64,000 nucleotides of DNA from Christiangramia lutea (lineage in GTDB: Bacteria > Bacteroidota > Bacteroidia > Flavobacteriales > Flavobacteriaceae). The stretch covers positions 62,001 through 126,000 of the forward strand of contig NZ_JAKVTV010000003.1 in the NCBI RefSeq assembly GCF_022489035.1. The letters run 5' to 3'. Position numbers and translations under genes: made by a program. Position 1 is the stretch's first letter; each line of letters starts with the position of its first letter. A model generated the notes under the pieces. It saw only the letters and a program-made list of their open reading frames with translations. It had not been told where the DNA came from and did not search any database. Shown one piece after another: positions 24,518 to 52,265 of the stretch.

Positions 24518-26626
24518 ATGGTAAAGAACTATTGGTTATTCACCAGTTTATTTTTTTTAATAACACTTTTCACAAACGCTCAAGATAAGCAAAGCGAAAC
24601 TTCAGATATGGAAGTTTCATTAAAGCTCATTAATCCTACACGTGAGATCAATGACGGAGAAGCCCGCGTGAAGGTTGAGGGTGGTCAGCCTCCTTATCAA
24701 TACAAATGGAGTAAACAGAATATTGCTTTGGAATCTAAAGAAGCCAAAGGTATTGTAGAAGGCCTTGATTATACCGTTACAGTTTCCGATTCTGATGGAA
24801 ACACAGTAAAAAAGGATTTTACTATTCCTGCAAACTCTATTACCGAAACTTTTAATAGTAAGGTGCAACCAGCGGTAGATTTCCTTGGTGGTATACTTTT
24901 CTGGGATCCTTTTGAAGCTATAGGGATTTACGATCCTGTTGTTTATACAGACCAGAAGGAAATCCCGGTTCCGAACTGGGATGCAACTACAAGTAATGTA
25001 TTTACACTTAAAAAATGGCTGGTCTCTGAAGGTTCATCAGTAAGTGAAGGTGATAAAATTGCCATAGTTCAAAAAGATTCAGGAGAAGAAATAGAAGTTT
25101 TTACTGATGCTGCAGGGAAGTTGAATTACCTGGTTCAGGAAGGTAATGAGATCTTCAATCCAAATATTAAGGAAGACGTTATCGAGCAGAATGCTCATAT
25201 GGTTGCCCAGGTTGAGTATGATGACCCGCAGCCACTGTATCATCCTAATGGAGATATTAGAAAAAATTCAATTCCATTTATTGTAATCTGGCTAATCCTG
25301 GGTAGTATCTTTTTTACTCTAAGGCTTGGATTCGTAAATATTAGGGGATTCAAACATTCAATTGAGCTTGCCAAAGGAAAATTTGATAACCCAGATGCTC
25401 CTGGTACGATTACTCACTTCCAGGCCATGGCTACGGCAGTTTCGGCTACCGTTGGTTTAGGAAATATTGCCGGGGTTGCCGTTGCGATTTCTCTGGGTGG
25501 TGCCGGAGCAACTTTCTGGATGTTCACCGCCGGTTTCTTTGCGATGTCATTAAAATTTACAGAATGTACTCTGGGTGTGAAGTATCGTAAGATCAAGGAA
25601 GATGGAAGAATATTTGGTGGTCCCATGAATTACCTGCGTTACGGTCTTGAGAAAAGGAATATGAAAGGGCTGGGTAAATTTCTAGCTGCGTTATTCGCCG
25701 TACTTGGAATTGGAGCGTCTTTTGGTGGAGGTAATATGATACAGTCTAATCAGGCCTTCAAAATTGTATCCGAACAACTTCCATTCTTGCAGGGATACGG
25801 ATTCTGGTTCGGAATAGGCTTTGCAGTGCTGGTTGGAGTCGTTATCCTGGGGGGTATTAACAGTATTGCACGAGTAACCAGTAAGGTGGTACCTGTAATG
25901 GCTGTTATCTATATCCTGGGTTGCTCCGTGGTTATTGGAGTAAATTTTGAAAACATTGGCGGTGCCTTTTCCGCTATTTTCAATGGAGCGTTATCTGCCA
26001 GTGCTATGAAAGGAGGATTTATTGGAGTTCTTATCATTGGTCTGCAAAGGGCAGCCTTCTCCAGTGAAGCCGGGGTTGGATCTGCGGCGATCGCTCATAG
26101 TGCCACTAAAACCGAAAATCCTATTGCAGATGGTTTTACTTCTTTGGTTGAACCCTTTATAGATACTATGGTAGTTTGTACCATGACTGCACTGGTATTA
26201 ATTTTTACCGGAATGCACGAAGTTGGCGGCGGAATGCAGGGGGTGGAATTAACAGCAGATGCCTTTGGTAGCGTGATCTCCTGGTTTCCTGCTGTACTTG
26301 CTTTAGCAGTTTTCCTTTTCGCGTTTTCCACGATGATTTCCTGGTCTTACTACGGGATGAGATCCTGGACCTACCTGTTCGGGCAAAGTAAAAAGTCTGA
26401 GATCATTTATAAGGTTTTATTCCTGCTTTTTGTAGTAGTGGGGGCCTCGGTAAGTCTTGGAGCCGTATTGAGTTTCTCAGATATGATGATCCTGGCCATG
26501 TCTTTCCCTAATATTATCGGACTGTATATTATGTCTTCTGAAGTTAGGGGAGATATGAAAGAGTACTGGAATAAACTGAAAAATGGAGAATTATTCATAA
26601 ATCCAAAATTCAGGAAGGCAGACTAA
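24518..26626 (+). CDS. AGCS sodium:amino-acid symporter with N-terminal SprB-like and lipoyl-like domains (paralogue 1)
   Basis: 702 residues, about 250 longer than a plain AGCS carrier. Signal peptide 1-21 (ends TNAQ); SprB-like repeat about 38-100 with GGQPPYQYKWS and YTVTVSDSDGNTV; a linker with LFWDPFEAIGIYDP; a lipoyl/biotinyl-like barrel about 158-235 (LKKWLVSEGSSVSEGDKIAIV, then TDAAGKLNYL); then the transporter from TM1 at about 252, with ATAVSATVGLGNIAGVAVAI. The family moves alanine or glycine with Na+. The extra domains should be periplasmic. A lipoyl-type lysine is not clearly kept and periplasmic lipoylation is unexpected, so a structural or sensing role is inferred. Confidence 0.9.
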   Translation: MVKNYWLFTSLFFLITLFTNAQDKQSETSDMEVSLKLINPTREINDGEARVKVEGGQPPYQYKWSKQNIALESKEAKGIVEGLDYTVTVSDSDGNTVKKDFTIPANSITETFNSKVQPAVDFLGGILFWDPFEAIGIYDPVVYTDQKEIPVPNWDATTSNVFTLKKWLVSEGSSVSEGDKIAIVQKDSGEEIEVFTDAAGKLNYLVQEGNEIFNPNIKEDVIEQNAHMVAQVEYDDPQPLYHPNGDIRKNSIPFIVIWLILGSIFFTLRLGFVNIRGFKHSIELAKGKFDNPDAPGTITHFQAMATAVSATVGLGNIAGVAVAISLGGAGATFWMFTAGFFAMSLKFTECTLGVKYRKIKEDGRIFGGPMNYLRYGLEKRNMKGLGKFLAALFAVLGIGASFGGGNMIQSNQAFKIVSEQLPFLQGYGFWFGIGFAVLVGVVILGGINSIARVTSKVVPVMAVIYILGCSVVIGVNFENIGGAFSAIFNGALSASAMKGGFIGVLIIGLQRAAFSSEAGVGSAAIAHSATKTENPIADGFTSLVEPFIDTMVVCTMTALVLIFTGMHEVGGGMQGVELTADAFGSVISWFPAVLALAVFLFAFSTMISWSYYGMRSWTYLFGQSKKSEIIYKVLFLLFVVVGASVSLGAVLSFSDMMILAMSFPNIIGLYIMSSEVRGDMKEYWNKLKNGELFINPKFRKAD

Positions 26627-26650
26627 ATTAATTTCTTGCTTAAAACTATT

Positions 26651-26684
26651 AAAAGCTTCGCCTCACCGGGCGAAGCTTTTTTTT
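26651..26684 (+). terminator. Terminator after AGCS paralogue 1
   Basis: Ten-base-pair stem AAGCTTCGCC / GGCGAAGCTT with a six-base loop, followed by eight T residues. Confidence 0.88.
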
Positions 26685-26762
26685 GCTAAGAAAAGGCTAA
26701 ACCTGTTGGATTTATTTTACATTAATATCAAATATTCTATTTTCAGGGAATAAAATTGAAAT

Positions 26763-27458
26763 ATGAAGAAAATTTACCTTTTACTCCTCGGTCTTATTTT
26801 ATTCTCTTGTAGTTCTACCTTAGATGTAACCGATAACCAGGAGCCGGAAAATCCTAATTTTACCTATCTCGCTTTAGGTGATTCTTATACAATTGGAGAA
26901 AGTGTTATGGAAACCGAACGCTGGCCGGTGCAACTCGCCGAGCAGCTTAGAGATAGGAATTATAAAATGGCGGCGCCTAAGATCATCGCCAAAACCGGAT
27001 GGACTACCGGTGACCTGTTGAGAGGTATGGATAATGAACTTAGTATTCAGCGGGATTTCGACTTAGTCTCTATATTGATAGGTGTTAATAATCAATATCA
27101 AGGCAAGCTTATCACGGAATATGAAGAAGAGCTCCGTAGTATTTTCCGTAGAGCGATCAATCATTCAAAAACCAGGGAGAATGGAGTATTTGCGGTAAGT
27201 ATTCCCGATTACGGGTATACTCCATTCGGGTCGGCGAATCAGGAAGAGATCAGTGCAGAGATCGATAGATATAACGAAGTTTTCCGAAGAGTGGCTGCAG
27301 ACTTTAATGTACCTTTTTATAATATAACTCCAATCTCCAGAAACGCGGGGGAAAACCCTGAGCTTATTGCTAGTGACGGTCTTCATCCAAGTGGATTAAT
27401 GTATAAATACTGGGTTGACCAAATTGTAAATCAGGTAGCTGAAAAACTTCCCGAATAA
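26763..27458 (+). CDS. SGNH/GDSL hydrolase lipoprotein
   Basis: 231 residues. Lipobox LFSC (Cys about 16). SGNH block I ALGDSYTIGE with the nucleophile Ser, block III with the GVNNQY asparagine, block V DGLHPSG with the catalytic Asp-His pair. An esterase, lipase or carbohydrate deacetylase acting outside the inner membrane; substrate unknown. A one-mismatch -7 box TAAAATTG ends four bases before the ATG (26751-26758). Confidence 0.88.
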   Translation: MKKIYLLLLGLILFSCSSTLDVTDNQEPENPNFTYLALGDSYTIGESVMETERWPVQLAEQLRDRNYKMAAPKIIAKTGWTTGDLLRGMDNELSIQRDFDLVSILIGVNNQYQGKLITEYEEELRSIFRRAINHSKTRENGVFAVSIPDYGYTPFGSANQEEISAEIDRYNEVFRRVAADFNVPFYNITPISRNAGENPELIASDGLHPSGLMYKYWVDQIVNQVAEKLPE

Positions 27459-27494
27459 AATTTTATAACCCTCATTTTCAATTGTTTAATTTGA

Positions 27495-27502
27495 TACATT
27501 TG
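27495..27502 (+). promoter_or_regulatory. -7 box placed for a leaderless DUF2851 transcript
   Basis: TACATTTG ends four bases before the GTG start at 27507. With usual Bacteroidota spacing the transcript would begin at or next to the start codon. The -33 match is weak. Confidence 0.5.
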
Positions 27503-27506
27503 AAAG

Positions 27507-28790
27507 GTGAGGGAAGACTTTCTATATCATATCTGGAAGTTTCGGAAATTTAGAACCGAAGCTTTAGAAACCACAGACGGGGACTATATTGATATAGTAC
27601 ATCCGGGAGTTCAGAATGAGCTAGCCGGCCCAGATTTCTTCAATGCGAAAATTCAGGTAGGTGATCAGCTTTGGGCTGGAAATGTGGAAATGCATATTAA
27701 GTCTTCAGACTGGTATTTTCATAATCACGAAACCGATCCTAATTACGATAATGTCATTGTTCATGTAGTTTGGGTACATGATGTCGAGGTATATAGGATG
27801 GATGGTTCTACTATTCCAACCATCGAATTGAAAGGAAAGGTTGATGCCGAACTATTGGAAGCCTACTTTTCCCTGCTAGAAAAGAAACATATTCAGATAA
27901 ATTGCGAGAACGATTTTAAAGATTTTTCAGAATTTCAGTTGCAACACTGGCTTGAGAGACTGTATTTCGAAAGACTGGAAGCTAAATCAGAAAAGATCCT
28001 TCAGATTTTATCGGGAACTGGAAATAATTGGGAGTGGGTTCTATTTATTATGCTCTCTAGAGGTTTTGGCCTGAATGTGAATGCTGAATCCTTTACACAG
28101 CTGGCTAGTAATATCGATTTCAGGATCGTACAGAAATTATTTAGAAAACAACTCTCACTGGAAGCTTTGCTGTTAGGGCAGGCAGGATTGATGCAGGAGA
28201 CTGATAATTATGGGAAAAACTTATCTGAGGAATATAATTTCCTGAGGAATAAATTTTCATTGAATGATAACTATTCGGAGAAACCACAATTTTTCAGATT
28301 AAGACCAGATAATTTTCCAACTATCAGGTTGGCACAATTGGCCGCTCTTTACGCAGAAAAGAATAACTTCTTTCAGAGCATTATACAGTGCGATAATATT
28401 ATAGATTTGAGAACCCTTTTTCAGGTTAATGTTTCGGAATACTGGAAAACACATTATAACTTCGGAAAAAAGCATAAAACCCGTACTAAAAATCTATCAA
28501 ATAATTTTATTGATCTTATCCTGATAAATTGTGTTATTCCTCTACGACATTGTTATGCGAAATATATCGGAAAGGATGAGGTGCAGTTAATCCAGGATTT
28601 TATTTCTGCCGTCAAACCAGAGAAAAATTCAGTAATAAAGATCTTTGATGATTTACGCCCTGGAACAGCGAGCAATGCCTTGCAGTCTCAGGCTCTGTTG
28701 CAATTAAAAAATGAATATTGTAATTTGAATAACTGTCTGCAATGTGAATTGGGTGCTTCTTTATTGAAAAAGTCTCCCAAATACATTTAA
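27507..28790 (+). CDS. DUF2851 family protein
   Basis: 427 residues with a GTG start; MREDFLYHIWKFRKF is the normal opening of this Bacteroidota family. Conserved features include VHPGVQNELAGPDFFNAKI, GNVEMHIKSSDW, HVVWVHDVEV and a cysteine-containing C-terminus (NCLQCELG). Function is not known. No signal peptide. It lies ten bases before the PspC gene, whose promoter overlaps its stop codon. Confidence 0.85.
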   Translation: MREDFLYHIWKFRKFRTEALETTDGDYIDIVHPGVQNELAGPDFFNAKIQVGDQLWAGNVEMHIKSSDWYFHNHETDPNYDNVIVHVVWVHDVEVYRMDGSTIPTIELKGKVDAELLEAYFSLLEKKHIQINCENDFKDFSEFQLQHWLERLYFERLEAKSEKILQILSGTGNNWEWVLFIMLSRGFGLNVNAESFTQLASNIDFRIVQKLFRKQLSLEALLLGQAGLMQETDNYGKNLSEEYNFLRNKFSLNDNYSEKPQFFRLRPDNFPTIRLAQLAALYAEKNNFFQSIIQCDNIIDLRTLFQVNVSEYWKTHYNFGKKHKTRTKNLSNNFIDLILINCVIPLRHCYAKYIGKDEVQLIQDFISAVKPEKNSVIKIFDDLRPGTASNALQSQALLQLKNEYCNLNNCLQCELGASLLKKSPKYI

Positions 28791-28795
28791 ATTTG
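28788..28795 (+). promoter_or_regulatory. -7 box overlapping the DUF2851 stop codon, placed for a leaderless pspC-like transcript
   Basis: TAAATTTG begins in the TAA stop of the upstream gene and ends four bases before the ATG at 28800. A TTG at 28764-28766 lies 21 bases upstream, a good -33 element. Confidence 0.6.
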
Positions 28796-28799
28796 TGAC

Positions 28800-29030
28800 A
28801 TGTCTAACTTCATATCTGATATTCGGTATTATCTGGAGAAACATGGGTTCTATGTTTCTACACGTATGGCAGATAAATTGGGAATGCGCGCCAAGAACGT
28901 AAGGTTGTTCTTTATATATGCGTCGTTTTTTACCATGGGAGTTGGCTTTATAGTATACCTCGTATTAGCCTTCTGGCTTAAATTGAAAGATCTAATTTAC
29001 ACCAAGCGAACTTCGGTATTCGATCTATGA
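28800..29030 (+). CDS. PspC-domain small membrane protein
   Basis: 76 residues forming one PspC domain: a soluble N-terminal half (IRYYLEKHGFYVSTRMADKLG) followed by one membrane hairpin region (about 36-60, FFIYASFFTMGVGFIVYLVLAFWL). PspC-type proteins take part in membrane-stress sensing or toxicity control in other bacteria. It overlaps the K+ channel gene by four bases (ATGA), so the two are co-translated. Confidence 0.85.
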   Translation: MSNFISDIRYYLEKHGFYVSTRMADKLGMRAKNVRLFFIYASFFTMGVGFIVYLVLAFWLKLKDLIYTKRTSVFDL

Positions 29031-30037
29031 GAGAGCTGATAGATTCAAAATTAAGACTGGCCGTTGTGTTAATCATTTTGGTATTTATAACCGGAGTGAT
29101 TGGTTTTCACTTCCTATATGATTATACCTGGATAGATGCCTTGTACATGACTATTATCACCATAAGCACTGTGGGATATGGCGAAGTACAGCCAATGGGG
29201 ACCTACGGCAAACTATTTACCTCGGTATTTATTATTACTGGACTTTTTATTTTCGGTTTTGGATTATCAACCATAACTGAATACGTGCTAAACAAGAACA
29301 ATATTGGTAATCTAAAACGTAATAAAATGAAAAAAAGAATTGATTCTTTTAAAGATCACATCATTGTTTGCGGGTACGGGCAAAATGGTAAGGAAGCGGT
29401 TCAAAAGTTATTGGATTACCGGAAGAATTTTGTGATCATAGATGATAATGAAGAAGTTTTTCAAGGAATCGATGATGACAGGCTAATTTATATTGTTGGG
29501 AATGCTACCGAAGATGAGGTTCTTATTAGCGCAGGAGTGGAAAGGGCTTCTACACTTATTTGTGCCTTACCCAGGGATGCCGATAATTTATTCATTGTTC
29601 TCTCTGCAAGGCAGTTAAAAAAAGATCTTAAGATCATAAGCCGGGCTACTGAAGAGAACAGTTATAAGAAATTAAAACTTGCGGGAGCAGATAATGTGAT
29701 CATGCCAGATAGGATAGGAGGTAGCCATATGGCTTCTTTGGTGGTAGTTCCAGACCTGGTAGAATTTCTCGATAACCTTTCAGTTTCTGGAGAGCATGAT
29801 AGTATAAACGTGGAACAGATACCTTTCACCAAAGTCTGTTCAGATGGCATAGAGAAGACGATTGCCGAAACCGATATTCGTAGAAAAACAGGATGCTCTA
29901 TTATTGGGTATAAATCACCTTCCGGAACTTATGTGGTAAATCCAGAACCTTCTTTAAAACTAGAGAAAGAATCTAAATTGATCATGATTGGAAGACCGGA
30001 ACAAATAGAAAGTCTAAAAAAATATTATTCGGTATAA
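29027..30037 (+). CDS. Two-TM potassium channel with RCK/TrkA domains
   Basis: 336 residues. TM1 about 11-30, pore loop with selectivity filter TVGYG at about 48-52, TM2 about 66-83. A cytoplasmic RCK_N domain follows with the nucleotide motif VCGYGQNGKEA at about 114-124, then TrkA_C at about 250-336. Forms a tetrameric K+ channel gated by ligand or ions. Overlaps pspC by four bases. Confidence 0.92.
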   Translation: MRELIDSKLRLAVVLIILVFITGVIGFHFLYDYTWIDALYMTIITISTVGYGEVQPMGTYGKLFTSVFIITGLFIFGFGLSTITEYVLNKNNIGNLKRNKMKKRIDSFKDHIIVCGYGQNGKEAVQKLLDYRKNFVIIDDNEEVFQGIDDDRLIYIVGNATEDEVLISAGVERASTLICALPRDADNLFIVLSARQLKKDLKIISRATEENSYKKLKLAGADNVIMPDRIGGSHMASLVVVPDLVEFLDNLSVSGEHDSINVEQIPFTKVCSDGIEKTIAETDIRRKTGCSIIGYKSPSGTYVVNPEPSLKLEKESKLIMIGRPEQIESLKKYYSV

Positions 30038-30183
30038 TATGAGATGGCTAAAAAAGGTATTGCAGATTCAAATTCTATTTAACAATAAATTCACAATTTA
30101 ACTCCCAAAAGTTTGATATAGCCCATTTTTTTAGCATATTCACCGGCTGGAAATTTAACTTTAAATAAATAACGCAAAACTAT

Positions 30184-32268
30184 ATGAGAAAGTATTTGCT
30201 TTCAATGTTCTTTTTATTTTCAATTTTTGGATTGTCTGCACAAGAACTGGACGTAAAAGCCAATATTGGTAATCCTTCAAACGTCATTAATAACGGGTTC
30301 ATCGAATTGGATGTAACCGGTGGTACTCCTCCTTATCAATATAAATGGTCTAACCAGTCTACCAGCCTTGAATCTAACAGGGCTGAAGGTCTAACTGAAG
30401 GAATTTCTTATGAAGTTGTTGTTACCGATAGCCAGGGAAAATCGGTTGAAAAATCTTACACCGTAAAAGCTGAAGCTATTACCGAACATTTTAATGGAAC
30501 TTTTGCCCCTATAGTTGAAAATATGGGTAATGTGCTTTTCTGGGATCCATTCTCTGCAATTGGGATCTATGATCCGGTAGTATATGCAGACTTAAAAAGG
30601 ATCGAAGCCCCTGAATGGGATGCAACCGAGAAGGTAAAGTATGTTCTTAAAGAATGGCTGGTTGAAGAAGGTGAGCATGTCACCGAAGGTGATCCTGTAG
30701 CTATCGTTACTAAAAATGGTGAAGAAATTACAGCTAATGCAAACGCCGAAGGTTCTTTAAAGCATTTTCTTGATGAAGGTGAAGTCATTTATGATTCAGA
30801 GAATAAAGAGGACGTTATTGAGCAGGGAGCTCAGTATTTTGCGAGCATAGAATATGATGAGCCGGTTGCGTTATTACATCCTAACGGAGATCCTCAAACT
30901 AAAAATATTCCATTTATTGTGGTTTGGTTGGTGCTAGGAGCATTGTTCTTTACGCTTCGTCTTGGATTTATTAATATTAGAGGTTTTAGACACTCTTTAC
31001 AACTTGCTAAAGGTAAATTTGACGATCCAAACGCCCCAGGTCAGGTAACCCACTTCCAGGCTTTGGCAACTGCCGTTTCTGGTACCGTAGGTCTTGGTAA
31101 TATCGCCGGTGTAGCTGTAGCTATCTCACTTGGAGGTGCTGGAGCAACTATGTGGATGATCCTTGCGGGACTTCTAGGGATGTCTTCGAAATTCGTAGAA
31201 TGTACCCTGGGTGTAAAATACAGGTTTATTAATTCTGAAGGACGTGTTTTTGGTGGGCCAATGAACTACCTTAGATACGGTCTTGAAAAAAGAAATAAAA
31301 GAGGCCTTGGTAAATTTCTTGCCGGCTTCTTCGCCATCCTGGCAATTGGTGCTTCCTTTGGTGGAGGAAACATGTTCCAGGCTAACCAGTCTTTCTCAAT
31401 CCTTGCAGGGGAATTCCCGATGTTGGCTGGAAATGGATTCTGGTTTGGTATCGTAGTAGCAGTTCTTGTAGGGATTGTTATTATAGGTGGTATTAGTAGT
31501 ATTGCAAAAGTAACTGGGAAGATCGTACCTATTATGGCGGCGGTTTATGTGATTGGTGCATTTGTGGTTATTGGAGTGAACTTCGGAAATATTGGTCCTG
31601 CTTTTTCTGCGATCTGGGATGGAGCATTTAGTCCTAGTGCATTAAAAGGTGGAGTTATCGGAGTTTTGATCGTTGGATTCCAGAGAGCGGCCTTCTCAAA
31701 TGAGGCCGGTGTTGGATCTGCAGCTATTGCTCACTCGGCAGCAAAAACAAATTATCCTCCATCTGAAGGTTTTGTTGCTCTTCTTGAACCATTTATCGAT
31801 ACCGTGGTAGTATGTACCCTAACAGCTTTAGTGCTTATCTTTACCGGTATGCACGAAGTTGAAGGTGTAGGAGGAGTTGAACTTACTTCTACTGCATTTG
31901 GAAGTGTGATCTCTTGGTTCCCATATGTACTTGCAACTGCAGTATTCCTTTTTGCTTTTTCTACCATGATTTCTTGGTCTTATTACGGAATGAGAGCCTG
32001 GACTTATCTGTTCGGAAAAAGCAAGAAAAACGAAATGATCTATAAATCTCTTTTCCTTGTGTTTGTTGTTGTTGGAGCATCTGTTAGTTTAGGAGCTGTC
32101 CTTGACTTCTCAGATATGATGATCCTTGCTATGTCTTTCCCTAATATCATCGGATTATACTTCATGATTGGTGAGGTTAGTGATGATCTTAAGGAATACA
32201 CCCACAGGTTAAAAGCTGGGGAGTTATTTCACAAAACTGAAAAGAAAGAAGCTGAAGCGGCCTCTTAG
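30184..32268 (+). CDS. AGCS sodium:amino-acid symporter with N-terminal SprB-like and lipoyl-like domains (paralogue 2)
   Basis: 694 residues, same domain order as the protein at 24518: signal peptide 1-20 (LSAQ), SprB-like repeat about 28-93 (GGTPPYQYKWS, YEVVVTDSQGKSV), LFWDPFSAIGIYDP linker, lipoyl/biotinyl-like fold about 152-225 (LKEWLVEEGEHVTEGDPVAIV, ANAEGSLKHF), transporter from about 242 (IPFIVVWLVLGALFFTLRL). The transporter halves are very alike, the extra domains much less so. It has its own 146-base upstream region and is followed 13 bases later by the helix-hairpin-helix gene. Confidence 0.9.
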   Translation: MRKYLLSMFFLFSIFGLSAQELDVKANIGNPSNVINNGFIELDVTGGTPPYQYKWSNQSTSLESNRAEGLTEGISYEVVVTDSQGKSVEKSYTVKAEAITEHFNGTFAPIVENMGNVLFWDPFSAIGIYDPVVYADLKRIEAPEWDATEKVKYVLKEWLVEEGEHVTEGDPVAIVTKNGEEITANANAEGSLKHFLDEGEVIYDSENKEDVIEQGAQYFASIEYDEPVALLHPNGDPQTKNIPFIVVWLVLGALFFTLRLGFINIRGFRHSLQLAKGKFDDPNAPGQVTHFQALATAVSGTVGLGNIAGVAVAISLGGAGATMWMILAGLLGMSSKFVECTLGVKYRFINSEGRVFGGPMNYLRYGLEKRNKRGLGKFLAGFFAILAIGASFGGGNMFQANQSFSILAGEFPMLAGNGFWFGIVVAVLVGIVIIGGISSIAKVTGKIVPIMAAVYVIGAFVVIGVNFGNIGPAFSAIWDGAFSPSALKGGVIGVLIVGFQRAAFSNEAGVGSAAIAHSAAKTNYPPSEGFVALLEPFIDTVVVCTLTALVLIFTGMHEVEGVGGVELTSTAFGSVISWFPYVLATAVFLFAFSTMISWSYYGMRAWTYLFGKSKKNEMIYKSLFLVFVVVGASVSLGAVLDFSDMMILAMSFPNIIGLYFMIGEVSDDLKEYTHRLKAGELFHKTEKKEAEAAS

Positions 32269-50894: not shown

Positions 50895-52265
50895 TCAAGG
50901 AGTATATTTCGCGAAATAGATCTTCGCAGCTTTCATTACTCTAGGAGCCAGAATTAGGGTTGAGATCATCGTTGGGATGGCCATTAAAGCAAAGAATCCG
51001 TCAATCAAGTTCAGAATAAAACTTAGAGAGGTTGTCGCCCCAATGATAATACTTAGAATGTAGATCCAGTTATAATATTTTTTGTTTTCTGCCCCAATTA
51101 GAAATGAAAGACATTTTGTTCCGTAGTAGGAATATGAGAAAAGTGAAGAAATACTGAAGGCGAGAATACATAATAATAGAAGGTAATTCCCAACATAAGG
51201 AATTGCCTGATCAAAAGCGGCGGCGGTAAGGCTAACACCATTTACGTCTGTGCTTTGCCAAACTCCAGTTACCAGAATCGCCATGGCGGTAAGTGTACAA
51301 ACTACCAGTGTATCGATAGCCGGGCCTAACATGGCGATTAATCCTTCACGGATAGGTTCTGAAGTTTTACTCGCTCCATGAGCCATAGTAGCGGTTCCGA
51401 TCCCTGCTTCGTTTGAAAAAGCTCCCCGTCTAATTCCTAATAAGATCAATCCACCTAAAACTCCGCCAAGTAATGGATCACCTTTATAATTGTTTGCAGC
51501 GAAAGCATCGGTAAAGATCATTCCAAAATAATGGAGAACAACATCATAATTAACGAGAAGAATAGTCACAACAGAAAGGAAGTATAGTGCCACCATTGCG
51601 GGCACAAGTTTGGACACAGTTTTACTAATTCTGTCCAAACCTCCAACTATTACGATTGTGGTTATTATGGTTAAGAATATTCCAATGATTAGGCTGGACA
51701 TAAAGCCAGTTTCAATATTATTTGGTTCCAGCAGAATATAATTGATCGCCTGGGTCAATTGGTTTACGTTAAAAACCGGTAAGGCACCAACGAGTCCGGA
51801 AACAGCGAAAAATATTGCCAGAGGTTTCCATTTTTTTCCAAGTCCTTCTACGATAAAATACATAACCCCACCCTGTATCTTTCCTTCAGAATCTTTTCCA
51901 CGATACATCACCGCTAAGCTATTAGTAAAGAATTTTGTTGCCATTCCAACTACAGCGCTAACCCATAACCAGAAAATAGCTCCTGGGCCTCCTAAAGCTA
52001 TCGCTACGGCCACTCCGGCAATATTTCCCATTCCCACGGTGGAGGAAAGAGCGGTAGACAATGCCTGGAAATGATTAATATCTCCCGGGTCGTCAGGATT
52101 GTTATATTTACCTCGAAGAACCTCGATAGAATGGCCAAGATATCTGAAGGGCAAAAATCGAGAATAAATTAGTAGAAAAATTCCACCTCCTATTAAAAGG
52201 ATAACTAAGGGAATTCCCCATACGGCGGAAGCAAAATCTGCAATAAACTGATCAATTTGGGACAT
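50895..52265 (-). CDS. AGCS family sodium:alanine/glycine symporter (plain form)
   Basis: 456 residues, standard AGCS length, without the extra periplasmic domains of the carriers at 24518 and 30184. About ten membrane segments. Family motifs LSSTVGMGNIAGVAVAIALGGPGAIFWLW, GVMYFIVEGLGKKW and RRGAFSNEAGIGTATMAHG are present. Should import alanine, glycine or a similar amino acid with Na+. Upstream 52266-52481 holds only repeats. Confidence 0.93.
   Translation of the reverse strand: MSQIDQFIADFASAVWGIPLVILLIGGGIFLLIYSRFLPFRYLGHSIEVLRGKYNNPDDPGDINHFQALSTALSSTVGMGNIAGVAVAIALGGPGAIFWLWVSAVVGMATKFFTNSLAVMYRGKDSEGKIQGGVMYFIVEGLGKKWKPLAIFFAVSGLVGALPVFNVNQLTQAINYILLEPNNIETGFMSSLIIGIFLTIITTIVIVGGLDRISKTVSKLVPAMVALYFLSVVTILLVNYDVVLHYFGMIFTDAFAANNYKGDPLLGGVLGGLILLGIRRGAFSNEAGIGTATMAHGASKTSEPIREGLIAMLGPAIDTLVVCTLTAMAILVTGVWQSTDVNGVSLTAAAFDQAIPYVGNYLLLLCILAFSISSLFSYSYYGTKCLSFLIGAENKKYYNWIYILSIIIGATTSLSFILNLIDGFFALMAIPTMISTLILAPRVMKAAKIYFAKYTP

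Follow-up and report, generated by a model that had tools for sequence, protein, structure and literature searches.

A SprB-type domain and a lipoyl/biotinyl-type barrel ahead of two AGCS symporters in Christiangramia lutea: support for a stepwise gain

Architecture of the symporters A and B

The window considered here, a stretch of 64,000 nucleotides from Christiangramia lutea, encodes two symporters of the AGCS family, A (24518..26626, + strand, 702 aa) and B (30184..32268, + strand, 694 aa), that carry two additional domains between a signal peptide and the carrier. A genome search finds three AGCS genes, every one inside the window, and the third, C (50895..52265, - strand, 456 aa), is a plain AGCS by Pfam and TIGR00835 and serves as comparison copy. 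A stepwise gain of the N-terminal modules, with the barrel placed at one insertion site, is supported by the analysis and constitutes its new point. The two open reading frames (ORFs) and their domain order had been proposed in an earlier note made from the letters alone; both ORFs are present, and the Pfam order in scans of the full proteins (SprB, Biotin_lipoyl, Na_Ala_symp) agrees in A and B.

All features of A and B lie on the + strand. B begins with a signal peptide (about residues 1-18, 30184..30237; read from the sequence), followed by the SprB-type beta-sandwich (residues 23-93, 30250..30462), which is seen in the structural model and matched by PF13573 (E 1.2e-7, 31.7 bits), over the curated cut-off of 28. 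A helix (residues 99-118, 30478..30537), of low confidence in isolation (model blocks with a predicted local distance difference test, pLDDT, of 58-61), leads to LFWDPFSAIGIYDPVVY (residues 118-134, 30535..30585). The biotinyl/lipoyl-type barrel-sandwich hybrid (residues 134-229, 30583..30870) is inserted before transmembrane helix 1 (TM1) and is joined to it by a conserved HPNGD loop, delimited by alignment (residues 230-241, 30871..30906). TM1 and the AGCS carrier (matched by TIGR00835 and AgcS 6cse) occupy residues 242-680 (30907..32223). In A, the signal peptide, likewise read from the sequence, covers about residues 1-21 (24518..24580) and ends in TNA before Q. The sandwich region (about residues 32-102, 24611..24823) and the barrel (about residues 143-239, 24944..25234) are transferred by alignment from B, in the former case from its model. 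The intervening segment LFWDPFEAIGIYDPVVY (residues 127-143, 24896..24946) is highly conserved in 57 aligned proteins, and TM1 with the carrier (about residues 252-691, 25271..26590) again matches TIGR00835 and AgcS 6cse.

The added domains of A are recognized less readily. PF13573 matches its residues 45-65 with E 3.3e-5 and 23.9 bits, below the cut-off, and PF00364 (Biotin_lipoyl) matches residues 158-211 with E 5.8e-4; with 20.1 bits for A and 21.5 for B, this family stays just under its cut-off of 22.1 in both full proteins. When the N-terminal stretch of B is scanned by itself, both families exceed their cut-offs, and both are matched at E<=0.01 in 20 of 20 aligned N-termini. PF13573 describes the SprB repeat of the gliding adhesins of Bacteroidota. 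A single copy fronts a transporter here, whereas elsewhere in the genome many copies stand in one ORF of 1923 aa.

The carrier parts score far above the family thresholds, with 377.1 (A) and 376.9 (B) bits for TIGR00835 (agcS; cut-off 272.65) and 387.9 and 396.2 bits for PF01235 (cut-off 24). They share the carrier domain of AgcS 6cse (A, E 1.1e-86; B, E 2.9e-87), which, like 6csf, stems from Methanococcus maripaludis. Only 16 residues precede the aligned start in 6cse, in contrast to about 241 residues with two domains before TM1 in B. At the AGCS motifs that we label, from the alignment, GNIAG, GNMxQxN and SNEAGxGS, B agrees with 6cse, and A reads SSEAG for SNEAG. By analogy with their family, A and B are probably Na+-coupled importers of small amino acids, for alanine or glycine. 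Plain C, 39% identical to B in the carrier, also lies far above the TIGR00835 cut-off, in line with the proposal that the added domains are dispensable for the basic carrier. Divergence of these domains beside a similar carrier, likewise proposed, is evident from the A versus B identities (in B coordinates) of 44% in the SprB region, 63% in the linker, 49.5% in the barrel region and 76% in the carrier.

Predicted structure and membrane side

An AlphaFold2 model of B residues 19-241 (mean pLDDT 84.8) consists of a beta-sandwich and a separate barrel, and thus bears out the independent folds expected for the N-terminal part in the earlier note. Superposition in a fold search matches the barrel to HlyD and to lipoyl/biotinyl domains. 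Possible matches of the sandwich (intimin rows) are weak; this search tested well only the barrel range, and the sandwich was not searched alone. The periplasmic position proposed before is backed by the loop charges, since lysine and arginine make up 20 of 127 inside-loop residues and 1 of 81 outside-loop residues in an 11-helix layout set by eye from the model. From this bias together with the signal peptide, we infer that the N-terminal domains lie on the periplasmic side.

The barrel shares the fold of biotinyl/lipoyl carrier domains, but differs from them in its placement before a transmembrane helix and at the hairpin where the modified lysine would sit. This hairpin (positions 176-182) is variable in the 57 aligned proteins, with Lys at position 177 in 11 and at position 180 in 11, and no conserved modifiable lysine was found among them. 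Since this residue is not conserved, the usual attachment of lipoate or biotin to the barrel would be impossible, and lipoylation or biotinylation was rejected as its function. HlyD-type adaptor barrels are unmodified as well, and the barrel here resembles them in having no conserved lysine. It might act as in HlyD/RND adaptors and connect the symporter with a partner in the outer membrane or the peptidoglycan. The barrel-sandwich hybrid is indeed common to both, but the adaptor hairpin and beta-barrel domains were not detected here, neither by Pfam at E<=1 nor in the model of residues 19-241, and we regard such an adaptor-like contact as distinctly unlikely.

Insertion site of the barrel and natural intermediates

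The LFWDPF segment had been described earlier as a linker. Its presence is confirmed. Judged by alignment, it corresponds more plausibly to the aromatic-proline segment found at the N-terminus of ordinary AGCS proteins, after which the barrel would have been inserted, than to a plain linker joining the two added domains. From LFWDPF to GIYDPVVY, it is better conserved than any other part outside the carrier (mean column identity 0.884, with 9 invariant columns out of 17). The median spacing from the motif to TM1 amounts to 3 residues in plain AGCS, 11 in signal-peptide-only forms, 34 with SprB alone and 124 with SprB plus barrel, in a count that is anchored on a profile, comprises 14 rows in its barrel-less class and is incomplete for barrel-less proteins, lacking L209, L211 and L218 (which read LLGDPF for FWDPF) as well as L205 and L220. 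This spacing by class identifies the barrel as an insertion of about 90 residues at one site. In 109 barrel rows the distance is 121-124, and in L224 it is 97. The automatic class labels of the AGCS proteins are rough: 'plain' extends to certain long proteins that have other inserts, and 'signal-peptide-only' to certain full-length ones.

Several natural forms carry fewer or other modules. A sandwich without barrel is found in L053 and L067, the latter having an identical database copy (P0240) labelled uncultured Nonlabens. A barrel-less query over 296 genomes of the order yields 17 more (L204-L220) from three further families, whose matches continue from SprB into TM1 and leave no space for a barrel. 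Still simpler relatives possess only a signal peptide and a short helix; in such proteins (e.g. L184-L191), the inside TM1-TM2 loop is longer than in A and B and ends in GEVSHF. Other proteins have exchanged their modules: L225 and L226 (family f59) carry a different N-terminal domain in place of SprB and no barrel, with a Pfam hint of Lipocalin_4 below the cut-off (E 0.0069) in L225 and no Pfam match in the N-terminus of L226, while L224 (family f65) lacks SprB and bears another insert between its FWDP segment and TM1. An insert of about 90 residues is also seen in the TM8-TM9 loop of other Bacteroidota AGCS proteins (L054, L056, L058, L063); by the same topology it would be periplasmic, and hence another periplasmic elaboration of the family.

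These exchanges bear on the possibility that alanine, glycine or a peptide is bound by the sandwich or the barrel and passed on to the carrier, in the manner of the substrate-binding domains fused to some transporters. A periplasmic position immediately preceding TM1 would suit such a capture device, and a secondary amino-acid carrier working with an extracytoplasmic domain is reported for TAXI-GltS, a binding-protein-dependent transporter (PMC12344293). The extra part of TAXI-GltS is a substrate-binding protein, whereas none is detectable in A and B by Pfam. Scans of the full proteins and of the 20 N-termini recognized no substrate-binding domain. The domain swaps in L224, L225 and L226, which keep the carrier, are hardly compatible with a dedicated amino-acid receptor, and only 4 of 93 barrel columns are invariant. 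Substrate capture is thus considered very unlikely.

Evolutionary history

A carrier tree was built from 79 rows after thinning, leaving aside L219 (contig end), plain C and the majority of the other plain rows; in it, the 24 barrel rows form one side of a branch with a Shimodaira-Hasegawa-like approximate likelihood ratio test (SH-aLRT) value of 95. This clade contains no barrel-less row and is nested in a group made up of 42 SprB-bearing rows (SH-aLRT 97), with barrel-less L053 as its sister (SH-aLRT 97). The plainest reading, supported by this quick tree, is that SprB was gained first and the barrel later, once. As the A-type proteins nest within the barrel clade (SH-aLRT 100), the duplication into A and B would have followed the gain of the barrel. 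One protein, L145, was relabelled for this tree and is shown as a signal-peptide form in another carrier tree, in which thinning of near-identical rows kept 86 of 183 and C forms a long branch.

A plausible course starts from the layout of plain AGCS proteins, in which the FWDPF segment leads straight into TM1. The AGCS of this gene slot, be it the signal-peptide form resident there or a tandem copy of that form, would have gained a SprB-type sandwich ahead of FWDPF. In a subsequent step, probably a single event, the loop from the FWDPF segment to TM1 would have received the lipoyl/biotinyl-type barrel of about 90 residues.

The gene slot

The surroundings of these genes are conserved. The 80 architecture-bearing loci, some of them interrupted by contig ends, contain a match to the acyl-CoA dehydrogenase in 79, to the helix-hairpin-helix gene in 78, to XerC in 73 and to DUF2851 in 67 cases, and a K+ channel near B in 42; 21 of the 79 dehydrogenase matches are only 32-37% identical and perhaps represent another member of that enzyme family. 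In the window, a K+ channel with TrkA domains (29027-30037) adjoins B. A second AGCS occurs in 14 of the 80 loci, being A-type in 12, a split B in L112 and signal-peptide-only in L164. Among 20 hand-picked loci with simpler AGCS genes (18 signal-peptide-only, 2 SprB-only), matches to DUF2851, the helix-hairpin-helix gene, the dehydrogenase and XerC are present in all 20, and the channel in 17. Because simpler AGCS genes occupy the same slot, the modules were either added to the resident gene or arrived with a duplicate that replaced it. A riboswitch is not supported in the window, where tRNAs are the only Rfam matches at gathering scores.

Distribution

The architecture is real and common in one lineage. 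The rarity implied earlier does not hold, as it is widespread in Flavobacteriaceae and B resides in a conserved slot. Of the possibility, raised at the same time, that it might prove common and already characterised, the first part applies; a description of an AGCS with SprB and barrel was not found in the open-licence papers searched. The N-terminal query of B matches 1068 protein clusters at E<=1e-3 among 2154 candidates; all 120 listed of them carry the AGCS Pfam family, and the remainder could include other SprB proteins. With the N-terminus of A, 245 of 2138 candidates match (120 listed). A scan of one genome per species yields 365 loci whose products are related to the N-terminal region, with a nearly end-to-end match in all of the best 80. 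Most of the nearest named matches bear the label Christiangramia. The named rows among the matches listed belong to Flavobacteriaceae genera with few exceptions, namely Pontixanthobacter (B clusters; P. gangjinensis is the label of the best single protein match to the B query), Brumimicrobium (A clusters), and one Cytophaga label plus Bacteroidetes metagenome-assembled genomes (loci).

In a family sample of 120 genomes, one per genus, the whole N-terminal part is matched in 19, its SprB-linker part only in 2, and any N-terminal match occurs in 65, the other listed ones being short, confined to the SprB stretch and mostly in long ORFs; some AGCS is present in 118. A phylum sample of 395 genomes contains AGCS in 217 and the whole N-terminal profile at E<=1e-12 in 8, all from the family of the window. 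Barrel-bearing forms also exist in two other families of the order (L221, L227 and L228 as read, L223 by length).

Differences between A and B, and constraint

Twenty-seven positions separate 99 A-like rows, among which window A and its database copy count as two, from 134 B-like rows at more than 90% in each. At the Asn of SNEAG (residue 516 of A, 506 of B), Ser is found in 99/99 A-like and Asn in 134/134 B-like rows. The 213 AGCS rows of the fetched loci, window copies included, have Asn in 146, Ser in 16 and Pro in 3, with 48 unreadable by the pattern used. The fixed Asn to Ser exchange in A suggests a functional difference between A and B.

Pooled ratios of non-synonymous to synonymous differences (pN/pS) are lowest in the carrier (0.057) and rise over helix plus linker (0.096) and the sandwich (0.151) to the barrel (0.188); they derive from 21 pairs of seven close B genes, L110 and L112 being excluded, and are rough, with silent sites near saturation. 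By these ratios the barrel is under purifying selection. In three B orthologues (L035, L110, L112), an in-frame stop or frameshift interrupts the carrier part, late in L110 and L112, reflecting a sequencing error or a broken gene.

Such constraint bears on the idea that the domains were acquired by chance and are simply tolerated. In favor of such neutral accretion, related genera hold simpler forms in this slot. This explanation, already weakened by the selection on the barrel, is also opposed by the lack of barrel-less rows in the barrel clade of the thinned tree and by the uniform spacing in 109 barrel rows, and appears extremely improbable. The modules might instead be accessories for folding, stability or oligomer formation, with neither a regulatory nor a partner role. 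Moderate constraint, a faster change than in the carrier, and N-terminal domains that differ between lineages are in favor of this; the strong conservation of LFWDPF and the PNG loop does not help to decide, as it fits an accessory and a cap equally. An accessory role of this kind is judged unlikely overall.

Possible role of the N-terminal domains

The architecture, the insertion site and the constraint on the modules are firm, and the order of gain is well supported. Tentatively, at slightly less than an even chance, a two-step build-up is favored that yielded a non-catalytic periplasmic cap. The cap and its contacts are guessed from the anatomy of the proteins: with the FWDPF segment and the PNG loop anchoring it to the membrane, the cap would tune the carrier or connect it to another component of the envelope.

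Several observations weigh against this proposal. The carrier tree comes from a short search without bootstrap and with long-branch warnings. Transport measurements on any member were not found in the open-licence papers searched. On the L164 contig, from a metagenome-assembled genome, a module-bearing and a signal-peptide-only AGCS adjoin each other between the channel and the helix-hairpin-helix gene; because this locus holds both, the gene with the modules may descend from an old duplication instead of being the resident one. The neighboring genes are the same with or without modules and thus point to no specific partner. The full-length AlphaFold2 model of B is poor (pLDDT 63.7; predicted template modelling score, pTM, 0.55), with an alignment of 56 close relatives that is probably too uniform over the carrier; it compares with 6cse at low confidence (TMt 0.74), and its quality does not allow docking of the N-terminal domains on the carrier to be deduced. 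The carrier positions linked to the modules fall at 13 of 81 outside, 22 of 95 inside and 11 of 226 membrane residues. These 46 module-marking positions, not being concentrated in outside loops, were dropped as evidence for docking.

A wider scenario can be drawn, in which the AGCS family repeatedly gained interchangeable periplasmic domains, at a single point ahead of TM1 and also, among other Bacteroidota, within the TM8-TM9 loop, as parts of an envelope-spanning assembly with the barrel as an adaptor in cis; it is held to be doubtful, and quite unlikely in this form.

Significance for secondary carriers

Secondary carriers tend to be portrayed as transmembrane bundles with no further domains. 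Bacteria related to C. lutea hold natural versions of one such carrier with zero, one, two or swapped modules, several of them in one conserved slot. These natural relatives, together with simple trims, allow a test of the effect of extracytoplasmic domains on a LeuT-fold carrier, and substrate or ion preference could be tested just as directly through the fixed Asn to Ser exchange in A.

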